Shown: positions 2,380 through 64,000 of the stretch, piece after piece | How the letters are laid out: the number at the start of each line of letters is the position of its first letter | How positions within the stretch are numbered: position 1 is the first letter of the stretch | Assembly: GCF_932274485.2 (NCBI RefSeq) | Contig: NC_065887.2 | Location: 15,596,001-15,660,000 of the forward strand | DNA from: Patella vulgata | Lineage: Eukaryota; Mollusca; Gastropoda; Patellidae | Length of the DNA: 64,000 bases | Direction: 5' to 3' | Notes under the pieces: model-generated | Database searches by the model: none | Told to the model about the DNA's origin: nothing | What the model saw: the letters and a program-made list of their open reading frames with translations, nothing else | Program-made: the position numbers and the translations under genes

Positions 2380-2778
2380 GAGGGGACTAAGAAATTATCA
2401 AACAGTTAGATCTTAAATATTTAGTTAGTTTTGGTGGATATAGAGACATGAGAACATGATGTAAATAACTAGTAAACAAATAAAACATATATACAGACAA
2501 AAACAGTGAATTATTTACAGTTAAAGGATGAAGTTCTACATCACCTGAAAGTATTATTAGTATACTATTCAAAAAAAGTAGGGGATATTTGATTTTTAAG
2601 TGTTATTAAAGTCACCTAATGAAACTGACGAAGAAACAAATGACAAAATGAAATGAAGTTCACATTCATCGATTTATTCCAAATGATCGTTAGACTAAGT
2701 AAGGCACAGACTGACCATTATAAGGGTAAAATGATACCCGGGGTCAAACAGCAAAGTTACCACAGCATCACAACCAAG

Positions 2779-3228: not shown

Positions 3229-3232
3229 AGTA

Positions 3233-4464
3233 TACTATTCAAAAAAAGTAGGGGATATTTGATTTTGGGGGCATAATACTAAAATATGCAAATGACTACG
3301 AAAAAAGTCACTATAGAACCTAACAGAAGAAACATTTCCAGTTACATGTGACGCCCAAACGCACCAATAGCTACCGCATGGAATGCAGGTGATGCTTGGG
3401 ATCATCATGGGGGTCCAACCCAAGATTTGCACGACTCTGACTTTGAATGTTACAGTCATTGTGGCATTGAATTCCAGGGTGGAAACATCAGTTTAATTGT
3501 TTTAGTGACCAGAAAACAAATTTTGATATGCTTCGGCTTACCCAAAATGAAAGGTTACGTGCCTTTGGCATGCTACAGATCCATTGTTTGAGAGATCATC
3601 ACATTCAGGCAAGACGTCGTTGGTGTAGGGATCGTCAACACTGGGACAATCGACGCTGGAGCAATGTGATGTTTTCAGATGAGTCAAGGTTCACTGTTAA
3701 TTTTTTGGACAGACGTAGGAGGGTGTGGCGTCGTCGAAACGAGCGCTTCCAAGACGTTAACGTCATCAGACATGATCGATTTGGGGGTGGTTCTGTTATG
3801 GTGTGGGGAGGCATCACTGTTGCTGGAAGAACGGCTTTACATGTTGTTGCAGGGCGTGTTACAGGCCAGTACTACCGGGACAACATCTTGGCAGTCCATG
3901 TTGTGCCGTTCGCACGACGTCATGGCCGCCGTTTCATCTTCCAGGATGACAACGCAAGATGTCACAGGGCCAGGATCGTTACAGGTTACCTCCAACAACA
4001 GAACATCACCACATTACCTTGGCCAGCACTGAGTCCCGACCTCTCCCCCATCGAGCATGTCTGGGACATGCTTGGACAGAGGTTACGTCAACGTCAACAA
4101 CGTCCTGCCAATGTCCAAGAACTTGCTGCTGCGTTGCAACAGGAATGGGACAATCTGGACCAAAATGACCTTAGACGTCTCATTAGGAGTATGCCACGTC
4201 GGATCAATGCTTGTTTGGCAAACAGAGGAGGATTTACCCGTTACTAACTTGGTTGTGATGCTGTGGTAACTTTGCTGTTTGACCCCGGGTATCATTTTAC
4301 CCTTATAATGGTCAGTCTGTGCCTTACTTAGTCTAACGATCATTTGGAATAAATCGATGAATGTGAACTTCATTTCATTTTGTCATTTGTTTCTTCGTCA
4401 GTTTCATTAGGTGACTTTAATAACACTTAAAAATCAAATATCCCCTACTTTTTTTTGAATAGTA
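3233..4464 (+). mobile_element. Tc1/mariner element, 300-bp internal deletion
   Basis: This copy has terminal repeats at both ends. Compared with the copy at 17846 it lacks exactly 300 bp, with the junction at a shared GATC, suggesting a microhomology-mediated deletion. The transposase frame survives because 300 is a multiple of three. It is 1232 bp long, which with the missing 300 bp gives 1532 bp for the parent. Confidence 0.9.
3528..4247 (+). pseudogene. Tc1 transposase lacking the DNA-binding domain
   Basis: The 239-residue frame keeps the whole DDE catalytic core: first Asp in FSDESRF (residue 51), second in QDDNARCH (141) and Glu in SPIEHVW (176), which gives the DD34E spacing of Tc1 transposases. 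The 100 residues missing after LQI would hold the paired helix-turn-helix domains that bind the terminal repeats, so this protein probably cannot recognise its element. The frame is otherwise open. Confidence 0.9.
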
Positions 4465-17845: not shown

Positions 17846-18935
17846 TACTATTCAAAAAAAGTAGGGGATATTTGATTTTGGGTGCATAATACTAAAATAT
17901 GCAAATGACTACGAAAAAAGTCACTATAGAACCTAACAGAAGAAACATTTCCAGTTACATGTGACGCCCAAACGCACCAATAGCTACCGCATGGAATGCA
18001 GGTGATGCTTGGGATCATCATGGGGGTCCAACCCAAGATTTGCACGACTCTGACTTTGAATGTTACAGTCATTGTGGCATTGAATTCCAGGGTGGAAACA
18101 TCAGTTTAATTGTTTTAGTGACCAGAAAACAAATTTTGATATGCGTCGGCTTACCCAAAATGAAAGGTTACGTGCCCTTGGCATGCTACAGATCGGCACA
18201 ACACAGGCGGTTGTGGCGCGGACGATGAATGTTTCTCAGTCTGTCATAAGCAGGCTATGGTCCAGATACCGTGATACACAATCTGTACAGGACAGACCAC
18301 GCTCAGGTCGACCAAGGGCGACAACTCAAGCCCAGGATCGATTTATCCGTACCTTGGCCTTGAGAAATCGTGTCATCACAGCAAATCAGATCAGCGCTCG
18401 TCTTCAAACAGACACTGGTGTGAGAGTGAGTGGCCAGACGATTCGGAATCGACTGCATAGGGGTCACCTTCGCGCCCGACGTCCTCGCGTGATCCCTTGT
18501 TTGAGAGATCATCACATTCAGGCAAGACGTCGTTGGTGTAGGGATCGTCAACACTGGGATAATCGACGCTGGAGCAATGTGATGTTTTCAGATGAGTCAA
18601 GGTTCACTGTTGATTTTTTGGACAGACGTAGGAGGGTGTGGCGTCGTCGAAACGAGCGCTTCCAAGACGTTAATGTCATCAGACATGATCGATTTGGGGG
18701 TGGTTCTGTTATGGTGTGGGGAGGCATCACTGTTGCTGGAAGAACGGCTTTACATGTTGTTGCAGGGCGTGTTACAGGCCAGTACTACCGGGACAACATC
18801 TTGGCAGTCCATGTTGTGCTGTTCGCACGACGTCATGGCCGCCGTTTCATCTTCCATTTGTTTCTTCGTCAGTTTCATTAGGTGACTTTAATAACACTTA
18901 AAAATCAAATATCCCCTACTTTTTTTGAATAGTAT
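17846..18935 (+). mobile_element. Tc1/mariner element, 442-bp internal deletion
   Basis: The terminal repeats TACTATTC...GAATAGTA are flanked by TA on both sides. Compared with the 3233-4464 copy, 442 bp are missing near the 3' part, joined at a shared CA. It is 1090 bp long; with the deletion restored it would be 1532 bp, the same as for the other copy, so both come from one parent family. Confidence 0.92.
18141..18881 (+). pseudogene. Tc1 transposase lacking the C-terminal catalytic part
   Basis: The 246-residue frame keeps the N-terminal paired helix-turn-helix region (QNERLRALGMLQIGTTQAVV, VISRLWSRYRDT, GRPRATT, VRVSGQTIRNRL) and the first catalytic Asp (FSDESRF). After RRFIF it runs into the 3' non-coding part (HLFLRQFH), so the second Asp and the Glu are lost. 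It could still bind DNA but not cut it. Confidence 0.9.
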
Positions 18936-44400: not shown

Positions 44401-47028
44401 AACCAGGACTTAATTGAAGATAATCCTTTAGTGATTGAGCATTGGTACTAACTCTAAACATGTGTTCTGCAATCATTCTGTCTAGTGATCTTTTTATTTC
44501 ACCAATGTATCATTTATCATTGCAACAATCAACTTCTAGTACTACCAACCAATGTTTCATTTGTCTGCAATATCTTCCTTGGTGGAACCAGAGAGAGAGA
44601 AATGGGTTTAAACGTCCACTCGACTCAAACTAGGTCATTTCAGGACTAACATATGGTTCAATTTTATTTTGATAATGCACTTGCACATAGGGTCTTTAGC
44701 AATGGGGGGGGGGGGGACCGGGAGACCCGAAGAAAACACATGAGGTTGAACAGGCAACCCTACTCCTTGTCACGTACAACCAGGGAATCGAAACCATGTC
44801 CCACAAACAAATGAATAGTACAAACTGTCATTTGTGTTTGAAAAGGTTAAGAAAACACTTGTATGTATGTATAACAACCAGTTCTTCCATATAATTGTTT
44901 GTTGTGTTTTTAAATGCAGATGGTTTTAGATTATTGTGATACTTTTTCAGTGAACCATCAACAAGTGGTATAGCTACAGGATCAAGTCCACAGAAAATCA
45001 ACTCGAGTCAACCAACTGCTGCTACAAGACCTAGATCCAATAGTCTAGGTTCGGCTTCTAAACCAAATGATTTGACTCCCATGGAGAAACTTGATATAGA
45101 ATTACAAAGAGTCATTGAAATATCTTCTACGATACCCAAAGGTACAGTTAGCAGTCTGTCATGTTAAACACTTCTTTGAAATTTAAGGCCAGTGGTTTCA
45201 TGGTTTTGTTAGCACTCAACATATTTTTTTAAAAAACACCCATTGGCAGTGGCTTAGTTTCTTTTGGGAGTTATGGGTTTTAGCATCACCTGTTAGGTAA
45301 GAGGTGAACACATGGCCTTCGAGACTAAGCAGAAATGTAATTTCAGTGCTCCCAACATTACAAAACATCACATTTGTATGTTTCTACATCTTTATTCGGA
45401 CGGTACGAAAAACCATGGTCCAGTGTACACATTGGGAAGCACATAAAAAAAAACAATAAAGAGTAGCAGTATTCTGATCGAAACCTATCTCTACAAATGA
45501 TTTTCAATTTAATAATGTCAGTCTGTCCCAATCAGCTAGATATACAAGGTAACTATTGTACTCGACAGGAAGTAAAGAACGTAGCCTTTTGAATATAGGT
45601 AGGCTAATATTTTTAGCTAATATTGTGGATCTGTGTTTGAATAAGCGAGACCAGAGTAGGGAGAGAGAAATGGGGTTTAACATCCACTCAACACAAACTA
45701 GATAATTTCGGGACTAATATATGGTTCAATTTATATTTCAATAATTTGCTTGTGCATAGGGGTCTTTAGCAGTGGGAGGAAACTTGAGGACCTGGAGAAA
45801 ACCGATGAGGTTGGACAGGCGACATTACTCCTTGTCACATACAACCGGGGAATCGAAACCACGCCAGTTGACTCAATGACAGACCTTATGATGCAACGTG
45901 CACGTGCTAACCATTCAGCCATCCAACCCCCCTGACCAGAGTAGGCCCTATACAATCAAGGAGTTCACCTCGGGCATGTGACTGCTCATCATTATCATTA
46001 AACTTGTTGTTTCAGGTGTAGAATCTGAGTCTATAAATAAACCTGAAGGTCATATAGCCAGCCATCATAGAAGGTGTAGCAGTAGTCGTTTTGATGAAAA
46101 TATGTCAACAATAGTTCAACGAGTGCCAAATAAAAGTGTGGAGGATTTATATTCTAACGATACTACAACAAACAGTGTTCATCTGCCATCATGTACGTGT
46201 GAAAAATGTCTCGAACAGTTGGGAGCTTGTGCAAGGGTCGAGGGTGAGGAGACGCGAAATTCGTGGGCCGGATCATCAAATACTTTTGGTATTATTAAAG
46301 ATTTATCGGTGTCCAATATCCATTCAGATGAAGGCGACAAAATGGTGCATTTCACATCAAAAGATTTTGCTGCCATCTTTAATAAAGATACCCATCTCTT
46401 TCCCCAAACATGTAAAAGTAATCCCTCTTTGAGTGAAATGTCTCCACCAGAAAGTAGTGCCTTTTTACTTCCCTCAACTTTAAGCGGGAAACCACGCGAA
46501 GCCTGGGTCCAGGAATCCCCATCTGAAACAACCAATAATGCTGAGATTAGTTCTGAAGAAAGCAGCCAGACAGAAGAATCCCATGTGGACAAGGCTTGTA
46601 AGGCAGCCATTTTGAGCTTGTCCAAACATCCTGAATTTGGCCTTGTTCTTGAACCAATGGCTTTTTCGTCACCGATTGATAAAACTAACGGAAACACTTC
46701 AGACAAACAAGAAGACTACAGTGAAACGAGTGTGGCGTCAGATATAGGAAATGACAACCAATCTTTTACTAACTCAACAGCTCATAGTGATTCGGGACAT
46801 GTATCCTTGTTAGAAATGGCCGAAAATCTTGTTCAGATGACAGAAGAAATGAACATACAAATTCAGGAAATGAACGAACAGTTCAGCTCCACAAGCGATG
46901 AGCAGCAAGTAACTGCTGATGATAACAATAGTGCTAATGACACTGGAATAGAAATTGTTGAAAACAAAACTTCTCGTGAAACTACAGAATCAGAGGATGA
47001 AGAAGAACCACAATCATTTTTTATTTGA
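26251..47028 (+). CDS. ANKIB1: ANKIB1 orthologue: ankyrin repeat and RBR-type E3 ubiquitin ligase (22 coding exons)
   Basis: The joined exons (188, 208, 57, 126, 54, 118, 176, 95, 145, 170, 89, 131, 135, 87, 70, 143, 213, 172, 129, 121, 191 and 1013 nt) give one open frame of 1276 residues; human ANKIB1 has about 1090. Order: an N-terminal [11 protein letters not shown] (glycine-2 myristoylation-like), ankyrin repeats (about 45-195), RING1 from Cys310, IBR (about 390-470), RING2 (about 499-560) with the presumed catalytic Cys512 in NEGCNHM, a helical Ariadne-like region (570-735), a small Cys-rich module (793-820), a UIM-like helix ([11 protein letters not shown], 849-859) and an acidic Ser-rich tail. 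RBR ligases pass ubiquitin through the RING2 cysteine to a substrate; substrates of ANKIB1 are not evident here. The match to the human protein is clear across most exons, and all splice phases agree. Confidence 0.95.
26439..28528 (+). other. ANKIB1: ANKIB1 intron 1
   Basis: 2.1 kb. It holds a short minus-strand SINE C fragment at about 26474-26535 and a roughly 60-bp doubled segment near 27475-27610 (AAACTGGAGGGGG region). Otherwise it is plain AT-rich DNA. Confidence 0.6.
28529..28736 (+). CDS. ANKIB1: ANKIB1 coding exon 2
   Basis: It reads [23 protein letters not shown]...INAVDE after a TTTCAG acceptor and ends in phase 0 before GTAATG. It corresponds to human GRDGNPNKRNVHNETSMH...AAIDAVDN. 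Confidence 0.95.
28762..28928 (-). mobile_element. SINE family B, partial, in ANKIB1 intron 2
   Basis: Reverse-oriented; GGTTGTGCAGGCAACCCTAC and GACTCAGTGACAGATCTTAT identify it. Confidence 0.7.
29214..29270 (+). CDS. ANKIB1: ANKIB1 coding exon 3
   Basis: Nineteen codons, [19 protein letters not shown], an ankyrin helix pair matching human [18 protein letters not shown]. Phase 0 at both ends. Confidence 0.95.
29410..29681 (-). mobile_element. SINE family B, in ANKIB1 intron 3
   Basis: A nearly full reverse copy from AGAGAAATGAGGTTTAACGT to GCCATCCAACCCCC. Confidence 0.8.
29895..30020 (+). CDS. ANKIB1: ANKIB1 coding exon 4
   Basis: [20 protein letters not shown]...ESKMVFS, last ankyrin repeat; human has LLVKHGGDLFAENENKDTPC. 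Phase 0. Confidence 0.95.
30540..30860 (+). repeat. Interspersed repeat D, in ANKIB1 intron 4
   Basis: It shares GTCTGTCTACAGTTAGCTC, TTAGTCGAAGTATAG and the AGAAATGCATTACAAAA region with an inverted copy at about 33790-34050, and its core with 54090-54260 and 59000-59110. Confidence 0.65.
31006..31059 (+). CDS. ANKIB1: ANKIB1 coding exon 5
   Basis: Eighteen codons, [18 protein letters not shown], acidic linker that aligns with human RDPEAEEIEAEYAALDKRE. Acceptor TTTTTTTAG, donor GTAATG. Confidence 0.88.
31487..31650 (+). repeat. Minisatellite abutting the exon 6 acceptor
   Basis: About four copies of a unit of roughly 40 bp (GTGTATAATTGACAAGTATA...GAGTATTTATATGTT). The last runs directly into the splice acceptor TTTTGTAG. 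Confidence 0.8.
31655..31772 (+). CDS. ANKIB1: ANKIB1 coding exon 6
   Basis: [20 protein letters not shown]...TAEALLRNH, matching human PYEGLRPQDLRRLKDMLIVE...TAEALLRAH. Ends in phase 1. Confidence 0.95.
32000..32129 (+). mobile_element. SINE family C fragment, in ANKIB1 intron 6
   Basis: The 3' part only: TTAGCCCAGATGGAGCAG and GGACGTTAAACCCCATTTCA. Confidence 0.7.
32196..32371 (+). CDS. ANKIB1: ANKIB1 coding exon 7
   Basis: [20 protein letters not shown]...TNPDPI; human DWDREKLLEAWMSNPENCC. UBA-like helix then a Ser/Pro linker. Phase 1 to 0. Confidence 0.93.
32587..32866 (+). mobile_element. SINE family B, near full length, in ANKIB1 intron 7
   Basis: A box region GGATGGCCGAATGGTTAGCA, B box GGTTTCGATTCCCCGG, body TCGTGGGTTTTCTCCGGGTC and CT-rich tail. 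It is not a tRNA gene because the fold and 3' end are lost. Confidence 0.85.
33317..33411 (+). CDS. ANKIB1: ANKIB1 coding exon 8 (RING1)
   Basis: CDICTC...[15 protein letters not shown] gives the first zinc ligands of RING1 (human LCDICMC...CGHDFCRGCWES). Phase 0 to 2. Confidence 0.95.
33474..33760 (+). mobile_element. SINE family B, in ANKIB1 intron 8
   Basis: A near full copy with an intact B box (GGTTTCGAATCCCCGG) and a CT tail. Confidence 0.85.
33790..34050 (-). repeat. Interspersed repeat D, inverted copy, in ANKIB1 intron 8
   Basis: Reverse complement of much of 30540-30860 (TTTGTAATGCATTTCTACTC, GTTGGTCAACTAGCTTAGTG). Confidence 0.65.
34118..34266 (-). mobile_element. SINE family C head, in ANKIB1 intron 8
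   Basis: Reverse copy of the tRNA-like head, ending GTGCCACCGTGGCTCCC. Confidence 0.7.
34272..34468 (+). repeat. Direct duplication upstream of exon 9
   Basis: About 90 bp with ACAAATATTTGCATGG, GCTGGTTTCCTGGGATTTTA and TTACATTAATTAGATCTTAT occur twice, back to back, ending at the exon 9 acceptor. Confidence 0.8.
34470..34614 (+). CDS. ANKIB1: ANKIB1 coding exon 9
   Basis: [20 protein letters not shown]...KYLQFDIQ, end of RING1 and start of IBR; human [20 protein letters not shown]. Phase 2 to 0. Confidence 0.95.
34615..35217 (+). other. ANKIB1: ANKIB1 intron 9
   Basis: No repeat or coding potential recognised. Confidence 0.5.
35218..35387 (+). CDS. ANKIB1: ANKIB1 coding exon 10 (IBR)
   Basis: [22 protein letters not shown]...[11 protein letters not shown] carries IBR zinc ligands; human AFVENNPAIKWCPTPGCDRAV. 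Ends in phase 2. Confidence 0.95.
35810..35898 (+). CDS. ANKIB1: ANKIB1 coding exon 11 (IBR end)
   Basis: [20 protein letters not shown]...KPEQ; human ECLGEAHEPCDCQTWKNWL. Ends in phase 1. Confidence 0.95.
36301..36431 (+). CDS. ANKIB1: ANKIB1 coding exon 12 (RING2, catalytic Cys)
   Basis: [20 protein letters not shown] then [11 protein letters not shown]; Cys512 is the expected ubiquitin thioester site of the RBR mechanism. It ends AAAG before GTAAAT, in phase 0. Confidence 0.96.
36428..36665 (+). repeat. Tandem repeat of the exon 12 donor region
   Basis: Units of about 45-47 bp (AAAGGTAAATAGTTTGTAC, CTCATTACTGTAGATGGTCT, TTATT) start at the true exon 12 end. AAAG/GT copies lie at 36431/32, 36478/79, 36554/55, 36598/99 and 36643/44, the third after a partial extra unit. 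Confidence 0.85.
36750..36906 (+). repeat. 33-bp tandem repeat of the exon 13 acceptor and exon start
   Basis: Five copies of a 33-bp unit (TGTAAACATGATGTTTTG, TTATCTATTTTGCAG) begin at 36760, 36793, 36826, 36859 and 36892. The last is the real exon 13 start. Four of the five have an AG directly before the exon-like part. Confidence 0.9.
36892..37026 (+). CDS. ANKIB1: ANKIB1 coding exon 13 (RING2 end)
   Basis: [20 protein letters not shown] then [17 protein letters not shown]; human [20 protein letters not shown]. Phase 0 at both ends. Confidence 0.94.
37462..37735 (+). mobile_element. SINE family C, degraded, in ANKIB1 intron 13
   Basis: Contains GTGATGGTTCAGTCAGTAAT, GGTCCTGGCAAGGAATAAC and AGCACACTGCATGGAGTAAG. 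Confidence 0.7.
37768..37854 (+). CDS. ANKIB1: ANKIB1 coding exon 14
   Basis: [20 protein letters not shown] then FKNHENSFK; human [20 protein letters not shown]. Phase 0. Confidence 0.95.
37855..38314 (+). other. ANKIB1: ANKIB1 intron 14
   Basis: No repeat recognised; an 82-codon open frame inside has no recognisable content. Confidence 0.5.
38315..38384 (+). CDS. ANKIB1: ANKIB1 coding exon 15
   Basis: [20 protein letters not shown], aligned with human LEQRLLKTAKEKMEQLSRAL. Ends in phase 1. Confidence 0.93.
38617..38759 (+). CDS. ANKIB1: ANKIB1 coding exon 16
   Basis: [20 protein letters not shown] and [20 protein letters not shown]; human FIEDAVHVLLKTRRILKCSY. Phase 1 to 0. The acceptor has two CTACAG copies six bases apart; the first fits the frame. 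Confidence 0.94.
38778..39205. mobile_element. MITE family E, just after exon 16
   Basis: Inverted ends TTTAAAGATACATTATGTAA and TTACATAATATATCTTTAA. It begins only 18 bp after the exon 16 donor. Confidence 0.75.
39388..39660 (-). mobile_element. SINE family C, degraded, in ANKIB1 intron 16
   Basis: Reverse copy from AAATGAAATGGGG to GGGAAACCACACTGGAAAAT. Confidence 0.65.
39717..39929 (+). CDS. ANKIB1: ANKIB1 coding exon 17
   Basis: [20 protein letters not shown] then [20 protein letters not shown]; human [20 protein letters not shown]. A basic RKKRRRK run near the end could be a nuclear signal. Phase 0. Confidence 0.95.
39990..40790 (+). repeat. Long minisatellite filling ANKIB1 intron 17
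   Basis: About 17-19 copies of a unit near 43 bp (AAATAGCTGCGATTGGTTTA, GAGTTTCAATGATTTATTTT), most regular at 40320-40590. It contains many T runs. Confidence 0.9.
40867..41038 (+). CDS. ANKIB1: ANKIB1 coding exon 18
   Basis: [20 protein letters not shown], then [11 protein letters not shown] and an acidic Ser-Asp run. The end at 41038 is chosen because a phase-1 donor (TATG before GTACAC) is needed to join exon 19. The frame stays open to 41118, so the donor is the least certain of the gene. Confidence 0.75.
41208..41442 (+). mobile_element. SINE family B, degraded and interrupted, in ANKIB1 intron 18
   Basis: GTCATTGAGTCAGAGGAC and GGTTTCGATCCCAAG at the left; GACAAGGAGTGAGTCGCC and TTTGTGGGTTTTCTCTGGGT at the right, with about 90 unrelated bases between. 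Confidence 0.6.
41912..42281 (+). mobile_element. MITE family A, best copy, 9-bp target duplication
   Basis: 370 bp with inverted ends (CAATCTGATTAAAATACAG and CTGTGTTTTAACCAGATTG). ACTGTTTGT stands directly before and directly after. A 9-bp duplication is typical of Mutator-like elements; the class is inferred from this one copy. It contains CTATGACGTCAGAC, a full CRE palindrome. Confidence 0.85.
42372..42500 (+). CDS. ANKIB1: ANKIB1 coding exon 19 (Cys-rich module)
   Basis: [20 protein letters not shown] then HDYCSPSCQ places four cysteines as a possible small zinc site (Cx4C, Cx3C). I know no counterpart in human ANKIB1. Phase 1 to 1. Confidence 0.88.
42908..43159 (-). mobile_element. SINE family B, minus copy of an inverted pair
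   Basis: Reverse copy from GGAAATGGGGTTTAACGTCC to CATCCAACCCCCC, about 100 bp from a plus copy. Confidence 0.8.
43173..43256 (+). repeat. Short tandem repeat between two SINEs
   Basis: Several copies of TAGTATTGTGTATTTCA in a row. Confidence 0.75.
43259..43539 (+). mobile_element. SINE family B, best copy
   Basis: 281 bp: TGGCCGAATGGTTAGCACG (A box region), GGTTTCGAATCCCCGG (B box), CTCGTGGGTTTTCTCCGGGT, CTACGCGCAAGCGAATTATT, TAGTCCCGAAATGACCTAG, GTCGAGTGGACGTTAAACCC and a TCTC tail. A tRNA-derived SINE with a conserved central part and a simple-repeat tail. Confidence 0.9.
43601..43721 (+). CDS. ANKIB1: ANKIB1 coding exon 20 (UIM-like)
   Basis: [20 protein letters not shown], then [31 protein letters not shown] fits a ubiquitin-interacting motif, as human ANKIB1 has in LLAIQLSLQES. 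Ends in phase 2. Confidence 0.92.
43699..44203 (+). repeat. Minisatellite derived from the exon 20 end and donor
   Basis: Ten copies of GTACCTACAGAGGGTGATGACAG-like sequence, the first being the true exon end. Nine are followed by GT; the last reads GACAGACAGC. Spacers of 20-38 bp read TTATACAATATAGTTATATA. Confidence 0.9.
44597..44798 (-). mobile_element. SINE family B, partial, in ANKIB1 intron 20
   Basis: Reverse copy from GAGAAATGGGTTTAAACGTC to CCAGGGAATCGAAACCATG. Confidence 0.75.
44951..45141 (+). CDS. ANKIB1: ANKIB1 coding exon 21
   Basis: [20 protein letters not shown], then [20 protein letters not shown]. Ser-rich and disordered, with a second UIM-like helix (LQRVIEISS). Phase 2 to 1. 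Confidence 0.9.
45660..45934 (-). mobile_element. SINE family B, in ANKIB1 intron 21
   Basis: Near full reverse copy. A short family C piece (AAACCATGGTCCAGTGTACA) lies upstream at about 45400-45450. Confidence 0.8.
46016..47028 (+). CDS. ANKIB1: ANKIB1 coding exon 22 (last)
   Basis: 337 codons and the stop, from [12 protein letters not shown] to EEEPQSFFI. It is an acidic, Ser/Thr-rich, probably disordered tail that also carries [13 protein letters not shown]. An open frame on the opposite strand here is a shadow. Confidence 0.93.
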
Positions 47029-53501: not shown

Positions 53502-54352
53502 TTTAACAACTTGTTTGGATTACATGAATGATGTATGGATAGTGGATAGAGATGGGGAAGTCCATGGTTTATATCAGATAAATTCCCCATAAAATCAGAT
53601 CTATGAAATCCAGAAATGAAATGAAATGAAATGGGCTGTATCATTGTACTTTTCTGCATATCTGGGCTCATCATGATCGGCATACACCAGGCAGTGTGCC
53701 ATGAAGGAAGTTTTCCCTGGATAACGTTTTACTGACTGAGCCACGACGGCTCCTATGAGATCCAGGAAACTAGGTTAAAATAAAGAGGATAAGTTGACAC
53801 AGATTGTCCTGGTATATTTTGTGTTGGTCAACAGCTGGATTCTTGGGACTTAACGAATTTCTCTGTAGGTTTGGCAAACTTTTACTGTACAAAAAAGCCC
53901 CACCTATGGCCGTGAAAATGGTGACATTTTGTACCTCTTTCCCTGTTCACACAGACACATCCTCGATATCCCCAGTGGAGTAGAACAGAACGATGCCACC
54001 ATGGATGTTATTTAAATGACGATTTTTGTTGACTTTTTCTGTAGAATCATCATAACATTTATACATGTCCCTGTTCTATCAAAACAACCAATTTCTAGAT
54101 AGAGAGAAATGGACCATAGTTCCGATGTGTAGCTTACGAAACTTACGCCGTCTGTCTACAATTAGCTCCACATGAGAACAGACCCGAAGCTTGTTGGTCG
54201 ACATTTTAATCCCCACTTCGACGATGTTTGTCGAAAACACCACGTACTGGGAATTCTTTCCAAAAACCTGTACGTTTATTATATTATGATAAAAACCTCC
54301 TGCCATTGGCAGTTTTAAGAATATGAAAGGTAAATCTTTTCCAGATTTAATT

Positions 54353-54368
54353 GGCCCTGAAAAGGGCC
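54353..54368 (-). promoter_or_regulatory. Histone-type 3' stem-loop, copy 1
   Basis: GGCCCT-TTTC-AGGGCC with six perfect pairs, 23 nt after the stop codon; the purine-rich CTGGAAAAGATTTACC follows. Confidence 0.75.
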
Positions 54369-54391
54369 GTTTGAAACAGTCTTTGTAGAAT

Positions 54392-54625
54392 TTATGCTCT
54401 AGCCATATTTCGTATCTTGTTCCTCAGAGATAAAACTCCTTCCACCACCGACATCCTCAATCTAATGCTATAACGAAATGGACGTAGTTCATCTCTTCTG
54501 GCTCTGTTGTATCTAACTTGAAGATCTTTTAGTTTGTTATTTAATAAAATAACCTGCTCACAAGCTAGACGGAATCTGTACTCTGTCTCAGACAAGGTGA
54601 CGTTAAGTCTTGAAATAGATTCCAT
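54392..54625 (-). CDS. 92-residue basic protein gene family, copy 1 (77 residues, internal deletion)
   Basis: Begins MESISRLNVTLSETEYRFRL and ends NKIRNMARA. Compared with the other four copies it lacks exactly 45 bp in frame, removing 15 residues with the SYYQYAHQK helix. TATAAATA lies 81 nt before the ATG, and a perfect stem-loop GGCCCTTTTCAGGGCC follows the stop. It has no introns. Function unknown. The deletion removes a well-kept segment, so this copy may be non-functional although it is open throughout. Confidence 0.65.
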   Translation of the reverse strand: MESISRLNVTLSETEYRFRLACEQVILLNNKLKDLQVRYNRARRDELRPFRYSIRLRMSVVEGVLSLRNKIRNMARA

Positions 54626-54706
54626 CTTTGATGTTCAATATTTTCAGCAGTGAAGTAGAGTTGTATACCTGATAAATGAGAATAATATATCAACTTCTGT
54701 CATCGT

Positions 54707-54714
54707 TATTTATA
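54707..54714 (-). promoter_or_regulatory. TATA box, copy 1
   Basis: TATAAATA in the GATGGTATAAATAACG context, 81 nt before the ATG. Confidence 0.65.
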
Positions 54715-54828
54715 CCATCATGAAACCACTTACATTATTTTTTCTTTATAACAATCTGACACCAGTATATCTGTGTATGGCTGTCAGGTACATCATTCAT
54801 GTAATCCAAACAGGTTGTTAAGTGGGTA

Positions 54829-55082
54829 AAGAGAAATAGGTTTCAATGTTCACCCGACACAAACTAGTTAATTGCGGGACTAACACGTGGTTCAATTCTA
54901 TTTCAATAACTCGCTTGAGTGAAAGGGTCTTTAGCAGTGGGAGGAAACCGGAGGACCCAGATAAAACCCACAAGGTTAGAACGACCCTACTCCTTATCAC
55001 GTACAAGCCGGCAATTAAAACCACGCCGCCTGACTCAATGACAGACCTTATGATCAACCATTCGGCTGCCCATTCTCCCTGG
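54829..55082 (-). mobile_element. SINE family B in duplication unit 1
   Basis: Same copy as 59986-60239, with almost no changes. Open frames across it on both strands are repeat read-through. Confidence 0.8.
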
Positions 55083-55248
55083 TTGTTAAAGAACATAAAC
55101 ATATATCAAATAAATACTGGTTCTGTAAAACTGTCAGCATATGTAATGTGACCCACAAATGTTTTTTTTACCTAGACTAAATGTGAGATAATCCCATGAT
55201 GATTTCCGCTTTATTGGCCATTATGGGCAGCTTTACGCAAAGCATTGC

Positions 55249-55618
55249 TGGAAATGAAATGGGGTTTAAAGTCCTACTGTTCTGCTACTATGCTGGGCTA
55301 ATGAAGACGGGCATACGCCATACAGTGTGCTATGAGGGAAATTTTGCCCGGGCAGCGGCACTATTGCCTACTCTTATATCGAATTCCAACTGCCAAGGGA
55401 TCTTTTACGTGCACGCCAATGTGTACACGGGACCTCGGTTTTTCGTCCCATCCGAACGACTAGACAGTTTTCCTTGTCAGCCCCTCCGTCCTGCATCACT
55501 GGCAAGGGAGAACCACGCCGGAAAATCTGGATGAACTTTCTCGGCCAATGCAGGTATCGAACACCCGACCTCCAGGCTAGCGAGCTAGAGTCTTACCCAC
55601 TTAGCCACGTGATCCCCT
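55249..55618 (-). mobile_element. SINE family C in duplication unit 1
   Basis: Full-length reverse copy from AATGAAATGGGGTTTAAAGT to TTAGCCACGTGATCCCC. A 112-codon open frame on the plus strand is read-through of the SINE. Confidence 0.85.
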
Positions 55619-55850
55619 GAGAATATCTAAAAGTTTTTGTAGCTTAATTTCATCAGGAGTTAATTGAACTATGTCATCAGCTTTACATATTAAACTAAAT
55701 CATTTATTTAAAGAGGCATTGTAGTAGAGCTAAATTTGTCCATTGCATGCTGTTTTTATGGCCAATAAATTATTATTTAGCCATTTCTACACATGACAAG
55801 CCCATAATCATCACTTTAGACCATCGTCATAATCATCACTCTAGACCATT

Positions 55851-56165
55851 GTAACGAAATATTAATTCGTTGTAACGAAATATTAATTCGTTGTAACGAA
55901 ATATTAATTCGTTGTAACGAAATATTAATTCGTTGTAACGAAATATTAATTCGTTGTAACGAAATATTAATTCGTTGTAACGAAATATTGATTCGATTCG
56001 CTGTAATGAAATATTAATTCGTTGTAATGAAATATTAATTCGTTGTAACGAAATATTAATTCGTTGTAACGAAATATTAATTCGTTGTAACGAAATATTA
56101 ATTCGTTGTAACGAAATATTAATTCGTTGTAACGAAATATTAATTCGTTGTAATGAAAAAGTAAT
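55851..56165 (+). repeat. 21-bp minisatellite, unit 1
   Basis: About 15 copies of GTAACGAAATATTAATTCGT (plus one base). One copy carries a TGATTCGATTCGCTG variant that is also found in the array at 61008. Confidence 0.9.
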
Positions 56166-56840
56166 TCATTATTATGAAATAATTAATTCTAGAGAGTATA
56201 TTATGGCTCTCAACCCAAGGATCAGTGTAGAGTATAGCATTTTGTGTCTACGCTCTAACTTGAAATAAAATTACACAACTGGCGATTAGAAAGATAATAA
56301 TTACACAAATTCTGTGTTTGGAGACAAAATTTGGCGGCTCTTTTTGAAAGATTTTCCTACTCACTTCTATGTTAAAATCTGACCTCGTCCAGTTACGTCA
56401 TTGTATTTAAACGAATAGTTACTTGCATGCAAGAACGGAATATTTGTCACCTGACTCTTGACTCACTGACAGATGGTATGATCTAAAGCGCAAGGGTTAG
56501 ATTAATAACCATCCTATCCCGGTCAGGCAAGCAGAGTTGGAGTAGTATGGCAATTCCCATCGACGTAGCTATAAAACTCATTCAGAAATTATGTCTGCGA
56601 TATAACTTCGGTGGAAGCGGACATTAATAAAGTTATTTCACACACATGTGTGTAGATATTCGTTCTAATGCGCCGAATACAGTTTTCTACTGGGGGAATT
56701 CTTTTTTCCAAAAACAAAAATCTATTTGTGAAAGTTAATAGCATTGGGGTGATTCTGACCTGTACCTTTATTAGATATGAAAACTTTCTAGCATTGGTAG
56801 TTTTAAGAATATGAAAGGATTATCTTTTCCAGATTTCATT
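56166..56840. other. Duplicated spacer, no gene recognised
   Basis: Matches 61300-61956. It contains a short family B remnant near 56455-56520 (GACTCACTGACAGATGGTAT). Confidence 0.5.
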
Positions 56841-56856
56841 GGCCCTGATAAGAGCC
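56841..56856 (-). promoter_or_regulatory. Histone-type 3' stem-loop, copy 2
   Basis: GGCTCT-TATC-AGGGCC: six pairs with one U-G wobble, loop UAUC, 23 nt after the stop. Confidence 0.75.
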
Positions 56857-56879
56857 GTTTGAACCAGTCTCTGTAGAAT

Positions 56880-57158
56880 TTATGCTCTAGCCATATTTCG
56901 TATCTTGTTTCTCAGAGATAAAATTTCTTCAGCTTTCTGGTGAGCGTATTGATAATAAGAATTTCTTACTCCCTCCACTACCGACATCCTCAATCTAATG
57001 CTATAACGAAATGGACGTAGTTCATCTCTTCTGGCTCTGTCGTATCTAACTTGAAGATCTTTTAGTTTGTTATTTAATAAAATAACCTGTTCACAAGCTC
57101 GACGGAATCTGTACTCTGTCTCAGACATGGTGACGTTAAGTCTTGAAATAGATTCCAT
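56880..57158 (-). CDS. 92-residue basic protein gene family, copy 2
   Basis: Full-length frame of 92 codons (MESISRLNVTMSETEYRFRR to NKIRNMARA). It is rich in Arg and Lys, with a heptad-like stretch (ACEQVILLNNKLKDLQVRY) that should form a coiled coil, then a basic part (RRDELRPFRYSIRLRMSVVE). There is no signal peptide or membrane segment. One exon, TATAAGTA 81 nt upstream, histone-type stem-loop downstream. It is transcribed away from copy 3, with 1.39 kb between the two ATGs. I do not recognise the family; it is not a core or linker histone. Confidence 0.75.
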   Translation of the reverse strand: MESISRLNVTMSETEYRFRRACEQVILLNNKLKDLQVRYDRARRDELRPFRYSIRLRMSVVEGVRNSYYQYAHQKAEEILSLRNKIRNMARA

Positions 57159-57239
57159 CTTTGATGTTCAATATTTTCAGGAGTGAAGTAGAGTTGTATA
57201 CCTGATAAATGAGAATAATATATCAACTTCTATCATCGT

Positions 57240-57247
57240 TACTTATA
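57240..57247 (-). promoter_or_regulatory. TATA box, copy 2
   Basis: TATAAGTA, same position as in the other copies. Confidence 0.6.
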
Positions 57248-58455
57248 CCATCATGAAACCACTGACATTATTTTCTCTTTATAACAATCTGACACTAGTA
57301 TATCTGTGTATGGCTGTCAGGTAGTATCTGATATGTTGTGATTATACTAATTATCTTATTGTATACCAATTAATCAATTAACGACATTTTAATTGCCGTC
57401 ATAGATTTATTTCATGGATACTCGTTTGAACAGTTTTCCGTAAAATTAAACCTGTGTACTTTGCAATATTTATTCTTAGTGTCGGCGATTTGTTTGTATT
57501 TTTATGTTTATGCTACGATTTGAACAAAGTGAGAATCCATGTTTATAATCGGACCGGGGGGGTTGGGTTAGCACGTGCGCGCTGTATCATAAAGCCTGCA
57601 ATTGAGTCAACTGGCGTTGTTTAGAATTCCCGGTTGTATAAGGAGTAGGGTCGCCTGTCCAACCCCGTGGGGTTTCTCCGGTTTCCCCCCACTGCTAAAG
57701 ACCCCTACGCGCAAGCGAATTATTGAAATAAAATTAAACCATATGTTAGTCCCGAAATGACCTAGTTTGTGTCGAGTAGACGTTAAACTCCATTTCTCTC
57801 TCTCTCTCTCTCTCTCTTATAATCAGACCGTACTTTATCTGTATAATGATGAATAATTATCTTTAGTTTAATTGTCTTTAGTTTGTGTCGAGTAGACGTT
57901 ACCCCCCCCCCTCTCTCTCTCTCTCTCTCATAATCGGACCGTACTTTATCTGTATAATGATGAATAATTATCATTAGCTTTAGTATTATTCCGAATATAT
58001 ACGACACAATAAGTGGATAACGCGACAATTTATTCCATGGTATCATCTGCCATATCATTTATACCAGGAGGCAGTTTTGGTAATATGGGGATTTCTATTT
58101 TAATGTAATTTTAGTGTATTTTGGCGAACCAGGATACACATTCGTATCTGAAATAGGCCTTGTCATGACAATACAATGCAGGCACAGCCTAATCAATTAC
58201 ATAAAACGAAAGAGATAGCCATAAGTTTAGATTTTACGAAAAAAAAAGGCCACACGAAGAACAACGGATTAATCAAAATGTATCACAGTAATCAAAATGT
58301 ATCACAGTAATTAAAATGTCGTTAATTGATTAATTGGTATACAATAAGATAATCATTATAATCACAACATATCAGATAATACCTGACAGCCATACACAGA
58401 TATACTGGTGTTAGATTGTCATAAAGAGAAAATAATGTCAGTGGTTTCATGATGG
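57248..58455. promoter_or_regulatory. Divergent spacer between copies 2 and 3
   Basis: The two ends are inverted copies of each other for about 150 bp beyond each TATA box (TGTCAGTGGTTTCATGATGG, CTGACAGCCATACACAG, ATTAATTGGTATACAATAAG), so both genes have the same upstream region. The centre holds a SINE B (57556-57818) and a TC-rich repeat near 57903-57929. Confidence 0.7.
57556..57818 (+). mobile_element. SINE family B in the divergent spacer, unit 1
   Basis: GGGGGGTTGGGTTAGCACG to the TCTC tail, with a small A-box deletion. Confidence 0.8.
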
Positions 58456-58463
58456 TATAAATA
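58456..58463 (+). promoter_or_regulatory. TATA box, copy 3
   Basis: TATAAATA, 81 nt before the ATG at 58545; transcription likely starts near 58485-58500. Confidence 0.65.
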
Positions 58464-58544
58464 ACGACGACAGAAGTTGATATATTATTCTCATTTATCA
58501 GGTATACAACTCTACTTCACTGCTGAAAATATTGAACATCAAAG

Positions 58545-58823
58545 ATGGAATCTATTTCAAGACTTAACGTCACCTTGTCTGAGACAGAGTACAGATTCCG
58601 TCGAGCTTGTGAACAGGTTATTTTATTAAATAACAAACTAAAAGATCTTCAAGTTAGATACGACAGAGCCAGAAGAGATGAACTACGTCCATTTCGTTAT
58701 AGCATTAGATTGAGGATGTCGGTGGTGGAGGGAGTAAGAAATTCTTATTATCAATATGCTCACCAGAAAGCTGAAGAAGTTTTATCTCTGAGGAACAAGA
58801 TACGAAATATGGCTAGAGTATAA
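58545..58823 (+). CDS. 92-residue basic protein gene family, copy 3
   Basis: Full-length frame (MESISRLNVTLSETEYRFRR to NKIRNMARV), identical to copy 5 in protein sequence. It differs from copy 2 only at Leu/Met-11, Val/Ile in AEEVLS/AEEILS and the last residue. One exon; TATA box and histone-type stem-loop at the usual distances. Divergent partner of copy 2. Function unknown; a basic coiled-coil protein made in S phase would fit the 3' end, but that is inference. Confidence 0.78.
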   Translation: MESISRLNVTLSETEYRFRRACEQVILLNNKLKDLQVRYDRARRDELRPFRYSIRLRMSVVEGVRNSYYQYAHQKAEEVLSLRNKIRNMARV

Positions 58824-58846
58824 ATTCTACAAAGACTGGTTCAAAC

Positions 58847-58862
58847 GGCTCTTTTCAGGGCC
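58847..58862 (+). promoter_or_regulatory. Histone-type 3' stem-loop, copy 3
   Basis: GGCTCT-TTTC-AGGGCC preceded by TCAAAC, 23 nt after the stop; the purine-rich CTGGAAAGGATT, a possible histone downstream element, follows at about 58870. Confidence 0.8.
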
Positions 58863-58999
58863 AATTAAATCTGGAAAGGATTATCCTTTCATATTCTTAA
58901 AATTGCCAATGGCAGAAGGTTTTATCATAATATAATAAACGTACAGGTTTCTTGAAAGACCCCCCCCCCCCCCAGCAGTAGTTTTTAGGACGAAAATCG

Positions 59000-59130
59000 T
59001 CAAAAGTGGGAATTAAAATGTCTATTAACAAGCTTTGGGTCTGTTTTCAAGCGGAGCTAATTGTAGACAGACGGCGTAAGTATCGTAAACTTCACATCGG
59101 AACTATGGTCCATTTCTCTCTATCTAGAAA
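59000..59130 (+). repeat. Repeat D core downstream of copy 3
   Basis: AAAATGTCTATTAACAAGCT and GGAGCTAATTGTAGACAGAC, also inverted at 54090-54260. Confidence 0.65.
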
Positions 59131-59734
59131 TTGGTCGTTTTGATAGAACAGGGACATTATACAGAAAAGTCTCTATGTAAACTGCATCCACGATATCCCC
59201 AGAGGCATCATTCTGTTCTACTCCACCGGGGATATCGAGGATGTGTCGGTGTGAACAGGGGAAAATGTAAACAAAAACAAAGATACCACTTTTGTGGGGA
59301 ATAGTTTACGTGTCCATTGAAAACAATTTGAAGAGTGTTTGTTCATACGGCTGAACCCCAAGCGTGTTAAAGATTTTACTGTAGATACTCTCTATTAAAT
59401 CTTTAACGATGTTTAATCAAGGGTTTAAAGATTTTGTTTCTGCTTGTTTGGAATTATTTGCCATGCAAAAGTATATCGTGAAAGAAGACAAGAAAAATAA
59501 TTTCTAGAGCAGTTTCGTGTTGTATTTTTTATTTGAAGGTCTTCACTGACACCTTGCAAGATCACGGCCGTAGGTGGGGCTTTTTTGTACTGTAAAAGCA
59601 TGTATTATAAGGTTTCCCAAACCTACAGGAAAATTTTCCGAAGAATCCAGCTGTTGACCAACACAATATATACCAGGACAATCTGTGTCAACTTCTCCTC
59701 TTTATTTTAATCTAGTCTTCTGGATCTCACAGGA

Positions 59735-59872
59735 GCCGCCATGGCTCAGTCAGTAAAACATTATCCAGGTAAAACTTACTTTATGGCACACTGCCTGGTG
59801 TATGCTGATCAACATTAACCCAGATATGCACACAAGTAGAATGTTACACCCCATTTCATTTCATTTCTGGAT
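59735..59872 (+). mobile_element. SINE family C, truncated
   Basis: GAGCCGCCATGGCTCAGTC head joined directly to the 3' end; the body is deleted. Confidence 0.7.
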
Positions 59873-59985
59873 TTCATAGATCTGATTTTATGGGCATATT
59901 CTGTGATATAAACGATGGACTTCCCCATTCCTGTCCACTATCCATACATCATTCATGTAATCCAAACAGGTTGTTAAGTGGGTAA

Positions 59986-60239
59986 AGAGAAATAGGTTTC
60001 AATGTTCACCCGACACAAACTAGTTAATTGCGGGACTAACACGTGGTTCAATTCTATTTCAATAACTCGCTTGAGTGAAAGGGTCTTTAGCAGTGGGAGG
60101 AAACCGGAGGACCCAGATAAAACCCACAAGGTTAGAACGACCCTACTCCTTATCACGTACAAGCTGGCAATTAAAACCACGCCGCCTGACTCAATGACAG
60201 ACCTTATGATCAACCATTCGGCTGCCCATTCTCCCTGGT
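59986..60239 (-). mobile_element. SINE family B in duplication unit 2
   Basis: Counterpart of 54829-55082; one visible change is AAGCCGG to AAGCTGG. Confidence 0.8.
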
Positions 60240-60405
60240 TGTTAAAGAACATAAACATATATCAAATAAATACTGGTTCTGTAAAACTGTCAGCATATGT
60301 AATGTGACCCACAAAGGTTTTTTTTTACCTAGACTAAATGTGAGATAATCCCATGATGATTTCCGCTTTATTGGCCATTATGGGCAGCTTTACGCAAAGC
60401 ATTGC

Positions 60406-60776
60406 TGGAAATGAAATGGGGTTTAAAGTCCTACTGTTCTGCTACTATGCTGGGCTAATGAAGACGGGCATACGCCATACAGTGTGCTATGAGGGAAATT
60501 TTGCCCGGGCAGCGGCACTACGGCCTACTCTTATATCGAATTCCAACTGCCAAGGGATCTTTTACGTGCACGACAATGTGTACACGGGACCTCGGTTTTT
60601 CGTCCCATCCGAACGACTAGACAGCTTTCCTTGTCAGCCCCTCCGTCCTGCATCACTGGCAAGGGAGAACCACGCCGGAAAATCTGGATGAACTTTCTCG
60701 GCCAATGCAGGTATCGAACACCCGACCTCCAGGCTAGCGAGCTAGAGTCTTACCCACTTAGCCACGTGATCCCCTG
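60406..60776 (-). mobile_element. SINE family C in duplication unit 2
   Basis: Counterpart of 55249-55618, with a few base changes. Confidence 0.85.
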
Positions 60777-61007
60777 AGAATATCTAAAAGTTTTTGTAGC
60801 TTAATTTCATCAGGAGTTAATTGAACTATGTCATCAGCTTTACATATTAAACTAAATCATTTATTTAAAGAGGCATTGTAGTAGAGCTAAATTTGTCCAT
60901 TGCATGCTGTTTTTATGGCCAATAAATTATTCTTTAGCCATTTCTACACATGACAAGCCCATAATCATCACTTTAGACCATCGTCATAATCATCACTCTA
61001 GATCATT

Positions 61008-61300
61008 GTAAGGAAATATTAATTCGTTGTAACGAAATATTAATTCGTTGTAACGAAATATTAATTCGTTGTAACGAAATATTAATTCGTTGTAACGAAA
61101 TATTAATTCGTTGTAACGAAATATTAATTCGTTGTAACGAAATATTGATTCGATTCGCTGTAATGAAATATTAATTCGTTGTAACGAAATATTAATTCGT
61201 TGTAACGAAATATTAATTCGTTGTAACGAAATATTAATTCGTTGTAACGAAATATTAATTCGTTGTAACGAAATATTAATTCGTTGTAATGAAATAATTA
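61008..61300 (+). repeat. 21-bp minisatellite, unit 2
   Basis: Same array as at 55851 but shorter by one to two units. Confidence 0.9.
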
Positions 61301-61956
61301 ATTCTAGAGAGTATATTATGGCTCTCAACCCAAGGATCAGTGTAGAGCATCGCATTTTGTGTCTACGCTCTAACTTGAAATAAAATTACACAACTGGCGA
61401 TTAGAAAGATAATAATTACACAAATTCTGTGTTTGGAGTCAAAATTTGGCGGCTCTTTTTGAAAGATTTTCCTACTCACTTCTATGTTAAAATCTGACCT
61501 CGTCCAGTTACGTCATTGTATTTAAACGAATAGTTACTTGCATGCAAGAACGGAATATTTGTCACCTGATTCTTGACTCACTGACAGATGGTATGATCTA
61601 AAGCGCAAGGGTTAGATTAATCACCATCCTATCCCGGTCAGGCAAGCAGAGTTGGAGTAGTATGGCAATTCCCATCGACGTAGCTATAAAACTCATTCAG
61701 AAATTATGTCTGCGATATAACTTCGGTGGAAGCGGACATTAATAAAGTTATTTCACACACATGTGTGTAGATATTCGTTCTAATGCGCCGAATACAGTTT
61801 TCTACAGGGGGGAATTCTTTTTTCCAAAAACAAAAATCTATTTGTGAAAGTTAATAGCATTGGGGTGATTCTGACCTGTACCTTTATTAGATATGAAAAC
61901 TTTCTAGCATTGGTAGTTTTAAGAATATGAAAGGATTATCTTTTCCAGATTTCATT
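61301..61956. other. Duplicated spacer, no gene recognised
   Basis: Counterpart of 56166-56840. Confidence 0.5.
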
Positions 61957-61972
61957 GGCCCTGATAAGAGCC
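61957..61972 (-). promoter_or_regulatory. Histone-type 3' stem-loop, copy 4
   Basis: GGCTCT-TATC-AGGGCC, as in copy 2. Confidence 0.75.
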
Positions 61973-61995
61973 GTTTGAAACAGTCTCTGTAGAAT

Positions 61996-62274
61996 TTATG
62001 CTCTAGCCATATTTCGTATCTTGTTCCTCAGAGATAAAATTTCTTCAGCTTTCTGGTGAGCGTATTGATAATAAGAATTTCTTACTCCCTCCACTACCGA
62101 CATCCTCAATCTAATGCTATATCGAAATGGACGTAGTTCATCTCTTCTGGCTCTGTCGTATCTAACTTGAAGATCTTTTAGTTTGTTATTTAATAAAATA
62201 ACCTGTTCACAAGCTCGACGGAATCTGTACTCTGTCTCAGACAAGGTGACGTTAAGTCTTGAAATAGATTCCAT
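61996..62274 (-). CDS. 92-residue basic protein gene family, copy 4
   Basis: Full-length frame (MESISRLNVTLSETEYRFRR to NKIRNMARA), the direct counterpart of copy 2 and different from it in protein only at residue 11. The stem-loop and TATAAGTA box are kept. Its ATG lies 1.24 kb from that of the divergent copy 5. Confidence 0.78.
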   Translation of the reverse strand: MESISRLNVTLSETEYRFRRACEQVILLNNKLKDLQVRYDRARRDELRPFRYSIRLRMSVVEGVRNSYYQYAHQKAEEILSLRNKIRNMARA

Positions 62275-62355
62275 CTTTGATGTTTAATATTTTCAGCAGT
62301 GAAGTAGAGTTGTATACCTGATAAATGAGAATAATATATCAACTTCTATCATCGT

Positions 62356-62363
62356 TACTTATA
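62356..62363 (-). promoter_or_regulatory. TATA box, copy 4
   Basis: TATAAGTA, same position as in copy 2. Confidence 0.6.
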
Positions 62364-62671
62364 CCATCATGAAACCACTGACATTATTTTCTCTTTATAA
62401 CAATCTGACACTAGTATATCTGTGTATGGCTGTCAGGTATTATCTGATATGTTGTGATTATAATGATTATCTTATTGTATACCAATTAATCAATTAACGA
62501 CATTTTAATTGCCGTCATAGATTTATTTCATGGATACTCGTTTGAACAGTTTTCCGTAAAATTAAACCTGTGTACTTTGCCATATTTATTCTTAGTGTCG
62601 GCGAATTGTTTGTATTTTTATGTTTATGCTACGATTTGAACAAAATGGGAATCCATGTTTATAATCGGATC

Positions 62672-62788
62672 GGGGAGTTGGATGACCCCTACGCGCAAGC
62701 GAATTGTTGAAATAAAGTTAAACCATATGTTAGTCCCGAAATGACCTAGTTTGTGTCGAGTAGACGTTAAACCCCATTTCTCTCTCAC
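62672..62788 (+). mobile_element. SINE family B, internally deleted
   Basis: GGGGAGTTGGATGA joins directly to CCCCTACGCGCAAGCG; about 150 bp that are present in the unit 1 copy are missing, which accounts for much of the shorter spacer. Confidence 0.75.
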
Positions 62789-63425
62789 ACACTTATAATC
62801 GGACATTACTTATCTGTATAATGATGAATTATCATTAGCTTTAGTGATTTCTACAAAGTAGTTGATTTGCATATTTTGTGCTTTTCATTTTCTGTAATCT
62901 GCTTTCTTTCTATGGTGACAGGTAGGTCCATATCCAATATCGCCATTACGGCAGTATTATTCCGAATATATACGACACAATAAGTCGATAACGCGACAAT
63001 TTATCCCATGGTATCATCTGCCATATCATTTATACCAGGAGGCAGTTTTGGTAATATGGGGATTTCTATTTTAATGTAATTTTAGTGTATTTTGGCGAAC
63101 CAGGATACACATTCGTATCTGAAATAGGCCTTGTCATGACAATACAATGCATGCACAGCCTGATCAATTACATAAAACGAAAGAGATAGCCATAAGTTTA
63201 GATTTTACGAAAAAAAAGGCCACACGAAGAACAACGGATTAATCAAAATGTATCACAGTAATTAACCTGTATCACAGTAATTAAAATGTCGTTAATTGAT
63301 TAATTGGTATACAATAAGATAATCATTATAATCACAACATATCAGATAATATCTGACAGCCATATACAGATATACTGGTGTCAGATTGTTATAAAGAGAA
63401 AATAATGTCAGTGGTTTCATGATGG

Positions 63426-63433
63426 TATAAATA
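63426..63433 (+). promoter_or_regulatory. TATA box, copy 5
   Basis: TATAAATA, 81 nt before the ATG at 63515. Confidence 0.65.
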
Positions 63434-63514
63434 ACGATGACTGAAGTTGATATATTATTCTCATTTATCAGGTATACAACTCTACTTCACTGCTGAAAAT
63501 ATTAAACATCAAAG

Positions 63515-63793
63515 ATGGAATCTATTTCAAGACTTAACGTCACCTTGTCTGAGACAGAGTACAGATTCCGTCGAGCTTGTGAACAGGTTATTTTATTAAA
63601 TAACAAACTAAAAGATCTTCAAGTTAGATACGACAGAGCCAGAAGAGATGAACTACGTCCATTTCGATATAGCATTAGATTGAGGATGTCGGTGGTGGAG
63701 GGAGTAAGAAATTCTTATTATCAATACGCTCATCAGAAAGCTGAAGAAGTTTTATCTCTGAGGAACAAGATACGAAATATGGCTAGAGTATAA
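63515..63793 (+). CDS. 92-residue basic protein gene family, copy 5
   Basis: Full-length frame with the same protein as copy 3 and only silent changes seen (for example TTTCGATAT for TTTCGTTAT, TACGCT for TATGCT). TATA box and stem-loop as in copy 3. More copies may lie beyond the window because unit 2 is not complete. Confidence 0.78.
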   Translation: MESISRLNVTLSETEYRFRRACEQVILLNNKLKDLQVRYDRARRDELRPFRYSIRLRMSVVEGVRNSYYQYAHQKAEEVLSLRNKIRNMARV

Positions 63794-63816
63794 ATTCTAC
63801 AAAGACTGTTTCAAAC

Positions 63817-63832
63817 GGCTCTTTTCAGGGCC
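63817..63832 (+). promoter_or_regulatory. Histone-type 3' stem-loop, copy 5
   Basis: GGCTCT-TTTC-AGGGCC, 23 nt after the stop; purine-rich CTGGAAAAGATT follows. Confidence 0.8.
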
Positions 63833-64000
63833 AATTAAATCTGGAAAAGATTATCCTTTCATATTCTTAAAATTGCCAATGGCAGAAGGTTTTATCATAA
63901 TCATAATATAAAAAACGTACAGGTTTCTGGAAAGACCCCCCCAGCAGTAGTTTTTTAGACGAAAATCGTCAAAAGTGGGAATTAAAATGTCTATTAACAA

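Follow-up and report, generated by a model that had tools for sequence, protein, structure and literature searches.

A cluster of five short single-exon genes

Within the 64-kb window, which is the whole stretch of DNA analysed here, tblastn searches and alignment located five paralogous genes between 54.3 and 63.9 kb (Table 1), in agreement with the five-copy family of the original prediction. That prediction had given 92 residues to each copy, which holds for four of the five; copy 1 has lost 15 codons through an in-frame 45-nt deletion and encodes only 77 residues. The proteins of copies 2-5 are 97-100% alike, and those of copies 3 and 5 are the same. Copies 2/3 and copies 4/5 form divergent pairs. 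A unit of ~5 kb with one gene pair occurs in tandem duplicate, being 97% alike over 2.8 kb and 90% alike over 1.3 kb; a more diverged inverted repeat (84-87%) contains copies 1 and 3. Overall, the duplications at the locus, both tandem and inverted, span 0.65-2.8 kb and are 84-97% alike, with other repeats nearby. The window also contains 21-bp tandem arrays, which were the source of Rfam matches to MIR4227 and mir-983 that we took as artefacts.

A TATA box was present at -89 to -82 in all copies, with the predicted 81 nt between box and ATG; three copies have TATAAATA and the other two TATAAGTA. The start codon lies in the context AAGATGG, which was graded strong. Upstream, the frame is bounded by an in-frame stop at -12, so that the open reading frame is complete in one exon. 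This agrees with the claim that the genes are intronless, although the 5' UTR may contain an intron. The copies differ by 5 nonsynonymous substitutions and 6 synonymous ones, against an expected nonsynonymous share of 72-78% (p 0.02-0.06, depending on transition bias), and the full-length copies differ by three nonsynonymous changes (L/M, V/I, and A/V). This skew towards synonymous changes gives modest support to a coding function under purifying selection. Taken together, the TATA box, the start-codon context with its upstream stop, and the excess of synonymous changes speak for genuine genes with a single exon.

Table 1. Positions of the genes and their associated signals in the 64-kb window.
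Feature	Sequence	Position	Strand	Remarks
Copy 1 CDS		54392..54625	-	77 aa, in-frame 15-codon deletion relative to the others
Copy 1 TATA box		54707..54714	-	
Copy 1 hairpin	GGCCCTTTTCAGGGCC	54353..54368	-	six Watson-Crick pairs; RF00032 31.4 bits
Copy 1 purine stretch	GGAAAAGA	54335..54342	-	candidate histone downstream element
Copy 1 AATAAA		54275..54280	-	72 nt past hairpin
Copy 2 CDS		56880..57158	-	92 aa
Copy 2 TATA box	TATAAGTA	57240..57247	-	
Copy 2 hairpin	GGCTCTTATCAGGGCC	56841..56856	-	loop UAUC; RF00032 19.9 bits
Copy 2 purine stretch	GGAAAAGA	56823..56830	-	
Copy 2 AATAAA		56767..56772	-	68 nt past hairpin
Copy 3 CDS		58545..58823	+	92 aa
Copy 3 TATA box		58456..58463	+	
Copy 3 hairpin	GGCTCTTTTCAGGGCC	58847..58862	+	RF00032 24.3 bits
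Copy 3 purine stretch	GGAAAGGA	58873..58880	+	
Copy 3 AATAAA		58934..58939	+	71 nt past hairpin
Copy 4 CDS		61996..62274	-	92 aa
Copy 4 TATA box	TATAAGTA	62356..62363	-	
Copy 4 hairpin	GGCTCTTATCAGGGCC	61957..61972	-	RF00032 19.9 bits
Copy 4 purine stretch	GGAAAAGA	61939..61946	-	
Copy 4 AATAAA		61883..61888	-	68 nt past hairpin
Copy 5 CDS		63515..63793	+	92 aa, protein same as copy 3
Copy 5 TATA box		63426..63433	+	
Copy 5 hairpin	GGCTCTTTTCAGGGCC	63817..63832	+	RF00032 25 bits
Copy 5 purine stretch	GGAAAAGA	63843..63850	+	

The hairpin and other signals past the stop codon

On the sense strand of all five copies we found a hairpin of the histone type, CAAAC-GGCYCU-UWUC-AGGGCC, with the 6-bp stem and 4-nt loop that had been described. 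Its distance from the stop codon, predicted as 23-24 nt, is exactly 23 nt in each copy. A search of the 64-kb window with the GGCTCTTTTCAGRGCC pattern, allowing up to three mismatches, returned five matches, all of them at these genes, when 0.26 were expected by chance, and none of 100 shuffles reached five matches. A structural definition (GG..CC, six pairs, loop UNUN) likewise retrieved the same five only, its chance rate being 0.4 per 64 kb, or about 2e-4 per 60-nt stretch on one strand. As the five genes are paralogues from one ancestor, the hairpin counts as one origin and not five, and its conservation among the copies says little because they are recent duplicates. The match in sequence and position is far beyond chance. 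Two of the 16 positions vary: copy 1 has C-G in place of a U-G pair, with pairing kept, and loop position 2 is U or A; the fold energy ranges from -8.4 to -11.4 kcal/mol. The 64-kb window yielded no histone gene, and the hairpin is therefore not that of a neighbour.

SLBP sites are closed by a UA pair and have U as the first and third base of the loop, and both hold for the hairpins described here. The minimal 20-nt site of this protein requires G at the second stem position, with AA 5' and A 3' of the stem (PMC10388802). All five copies carry these letters, the AA lying within CAAAC with one C between it and the stem. By the letters that it retains, the hairpin qualifies as a candidate SLBP-type site. 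Furthermore, each copy gave a sense-strand match to the Rfam model RF00032 (Histone 3' UTR stem-loop) that spans all 46 positions of the model, with a best E of 7.2e-6 in a 10-kb search against 4227 families. Since every score (Table 1) lies under the gathering score of 34, we did not assign the hairpins to this family.

The predicted purine-rich stretch, GGAAARGA, is likewise found in all copies, 10 nt 3' of the stem, and it constitutes weak evidence. Its pairing with human U7 was no better than that of random window sequence, and the host U7 may differ. In the bivalve Lucina, only a subset of histone genes had a detectable downstream element of this kind (PMC6210712). The AAATCTGGAAARGAT stretch is a candidate segment for U7 snRNA pairing. 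Further downstream, four of the five copies (1-4) carry AATAAA at 68-72 nt past the hairpin, a feature absent from the original prediction; a polyadenylated mRNA is therefore possible for these copies. Copy 5 has lost this signal (AAAAAA).

A small basic protein with a modelled two-helix shape

The encoded protein is small and basic (11.2 kDa, pI 10.3, 16 Arg). AlphaFold2, run without an alignment, placed residues 13-44 and 48-91 in two long helices with a pLDDT of 84.5, and the protein thus models as a two-helix hairpin. We found no relative of it in Pfam, where the only hit was SlyX at E 0.25, or in NCBIfam and PHROGs, and a sequence search of the PDB gave no match. Searches for relatives in viral, prokaryote, phage, and plasmid collections, which hold no animal genomes, found none, and no match to degenerate DNA patterns, whether of the hairpin or of the FRYxIRxRxxxVEGVRNxYYxYA core, was obtained in the same non-animal collections; given their content, these negatives carry little weight.

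Structural comparison by Foldseek reached a best E of 0.62 against the PDB and nothing significant against viral models. VIA Z values against two-helix hairpin proteins were about 8-10 (up to 9.9), which is the usual range for helical hairpins, and for this reason the structure matches give no trustworthy lead. The Snf7/ESCRT-III core, the ING4 and NuA4 coiled coils, and designed hairpins resemble the protein in modelled shape, but their identity to it is 4-19%, with no sign of relationship. Comparison with five human histones showed no significant similarity. A histone origin of the protein was ruled out by Pfam, by this human-histone comparison, and by the modelled two-helix, non-histone fold. 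The claim of a non-histone protein is therefore upheld both in sequence and in modelled fold, and the profile and structure searches that had been proposed with it, run here against Pfam and the PDB, revealed no histone relationship.

Proposed histone-type 3'-end control and competing explanations

The locus shares many features with metazoan replication-dependent histone genes, which are likewise short, intronless, and clustered in multiple copies with divergent pairs and a TATA box, and which encode basic proteins and carry a 6-bp/4-nt hairpin with CAAAC before it and a purine stretch after it. In bivalve histone mRNAs this hairpin also lies near the stop codon (PMC6210712). The genes studied here differ in their non-histone protein and fold, in the bases 3' of the stem (AATT or AATG, not the usual ACCA), and in that U7 pairing was not recognisable with human U7. 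Histone genes of C. elegans have a comparable order of a hairpin, a possible downstream element, and then AATAAA; in contrast to the genes here, they encode histones and their loop starts with C (PMC1924863). As judged from its sequence, the 3'-end layout thus resembles both histone genes and RF00032 elements. Since the encoded protein was compared with histones and is not one, we did not class the genes as replication-dependent histone genes.

We consider that the locus is probably a cluster of non-histone genes subject to 3'-end control of the histone type, in which pre-mRNAs would be cut after an SLBP-bound hairpin and the mRNAs would carry no poly(A). The original prediction of such control is partly supported, in that the sequence contains a coding gene with the hairpin in the right place and orientation. 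Under this explanation, TATA-driven, clustered, intronless multi-copy genes would encode a small basic helical-hairpin protein. The signal suggests that the pre-mRNA would be cut just past the hairpin with the help of SLBP, U7 snRNP, and the histone cleavage complex, yielding mRNAs without poly(A) whose synthesis and decay may follow the S-phase programme, or which oocytes and early embryos may store. The AATAAA would serve as a fail-safe, as it does 3' of histone genes.

The main competitor is an ordinary polyadenylated gene, whose mRNA would end past AATAAA and whose hairpin would be a chance or otherwise functional element of the 3' UTR. The presence of AATAAA in four copies, the lack of a recognisable U7 site in the comparison with human U7, and RF00032 scores under the gathering score all speak for it. 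Nevertheless, copy 5 has no AATAAA yet encodes a protein identical to that of copy 3, and the fit of the hairpin in sequence and position far exceeds what chance would provide. Moreover, AATAAA does not refute a histone-type end, because histone genes themselves carry or use such signals: in C. elegans every histone gene has AATAAA just past the hairpin, yet the mRNAs terminate 3-6 nt beyond that hairpin (PMC1924863), and misprocessed histone RNA of fly and human makes use of such poly(A) signals (PMC6303110). On balance, we regard an ordinary polyadenylated gene as rather unlikely. The coexistence of hairpin and AATAAA in four copies would also suit a gene with dual ends, producing RNA that ends at the hairpin in oocytes or dividing cells and RNA with poly(A) in the remaining tissues, and some human H2B genes are reported to yield polyadenylated mRNAs under several conditions (PMC3661734). 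The sequence gives nothing that would separate dual ends from histone-type control, and copy 5 has the hairpin only; we give the dual-end possibility little weight.

The least probable explanation, and in our view a very improbable one, is that of a decaying duplicated repeat, with the open reading frame and hairpin as remnants of a recent amplification and the genes not expressed. It would account for the tandem and inverted duplications with repeats around them and for the deletion in copy 1. However, all five frames are open, the deletion in copy 1 is itself in frame, substitutions are skewed towards synonymous changes, and the TATA box and start-codon context are kept. Copies 1 and 3 also differ by only 0-2 changes per 50 nt from -100 to +300, whereas the part of the 3' flank that aligns (+400 to +700) has 1-19 changes over the same length. 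Gene conversion could be an alternative source of this low divergence of the cassette relative to its flank.

We lean slightly towards a non-histone gene family that took over the complete histone 3'-end system, with its protein supplied alongside DNA replication or from maternal stores. What the protein does is a matter for conjecture. It might be a structural protein associated with nucleic acid or chromatin and required in amounts that scale with DNA or cell number, because a basic, probably self-associating helical hairpin is here encoded by several near-identical genes with a histone-type signal; that it is such a chromatin- or nucleic-acid-associated structural protein of the early embryo or germ line is put forward only tentatively.

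According to published descriptions, replication-dependent histone mRNAs alone among animal mRNAs lack poly(A) (PMC6303110; PMC10388802). In the open literature we found no report that assigns a histone-type hairpin end to any gene other than a histone gene, and an earlier report may exist. The genes may thus be an exception to the histone-only rule, in which known machinery serves a new kind of client. If this is true, the rule would be broken and the signal would be transferable between genes, and the protein would presumably be one that has to keep pace with DNA replication in its amount or that the egg must store. Poly(A)-selected RNA-seq would then miss the transcripts, and the gene is perhaps poorly annotated as a result. 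Proteins with a similar FRY-LR-R...VEGVRN...YYxYA core may, we presume, be annotated as uncharacterised in other invertebrates.

Duplication of the gene pairs

A unit of approximately 5 kb with one divergent pair of the small intronless genes is tandemly duplicated in the window. Because the duplication extends past the window end, further copies of the unit may exist. The unit contains arrays of a 21-bp sequence, TTGTAACGAAATATTAATTCG, and microRNA-family matches were considered spurious since they were produced by these arrays. The minus strand of another repeat resembles a tRNA-derived SINE when read by eye (GTGGCTAAGTGGGTAAGACTC ... GGTGTTCGATACC); ARAGORN found no tRNA.

Features in the window (window positions)
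Feature	Position	Strand	Remarks
Non-LTR retrotransposon	412-2394	-	661-codon open frame; endonuclease, beginning of reverse transcriptase domain
Tc1/mariner-type transposase fragment	2782-3234	-	Likeness to 3471-4244 fragment, inverted relative to it
Tc1/mariner-type transposase fragment	3471-4244	+	DDE_3, HTH_Tnp_Tc3_2
Tc1/mariner-type transposase fragment	18084-18878	+	DDE_3, HTH_Tnp_Tc3_2
Acidic open frame	45982-47025	+	348 codons
Copy 1	54392-54625	-
Duplicated unit, first 2.8 kb	54789-57559, 59945-62675		97% alike
Duplicated unit, next 1.3 kb	57700-59031, 62684-64000		90% alike
SINE-like repeat	55187-55620, 60344-60777	-
21-bp arrays	55849-56189, 61006-61304		14-16 copies

Deletion in copy 1

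Copy 1 of the five paralogues has lost 15 residues of the modelled second helix in frame, in the VRNSYYQYAHQKAEE region. Despite this deletion, its histone-type hairpin scored best among the five copies (31.4 bits against Rfam RF00032).

Elsewhere in the window

Transposable elements occur elsewhere in the window. The acidic open frame is Ser/Glu-rich, with a CTCEKC motif; it had no match in Pfam and is perhaps a large host-gene exon.
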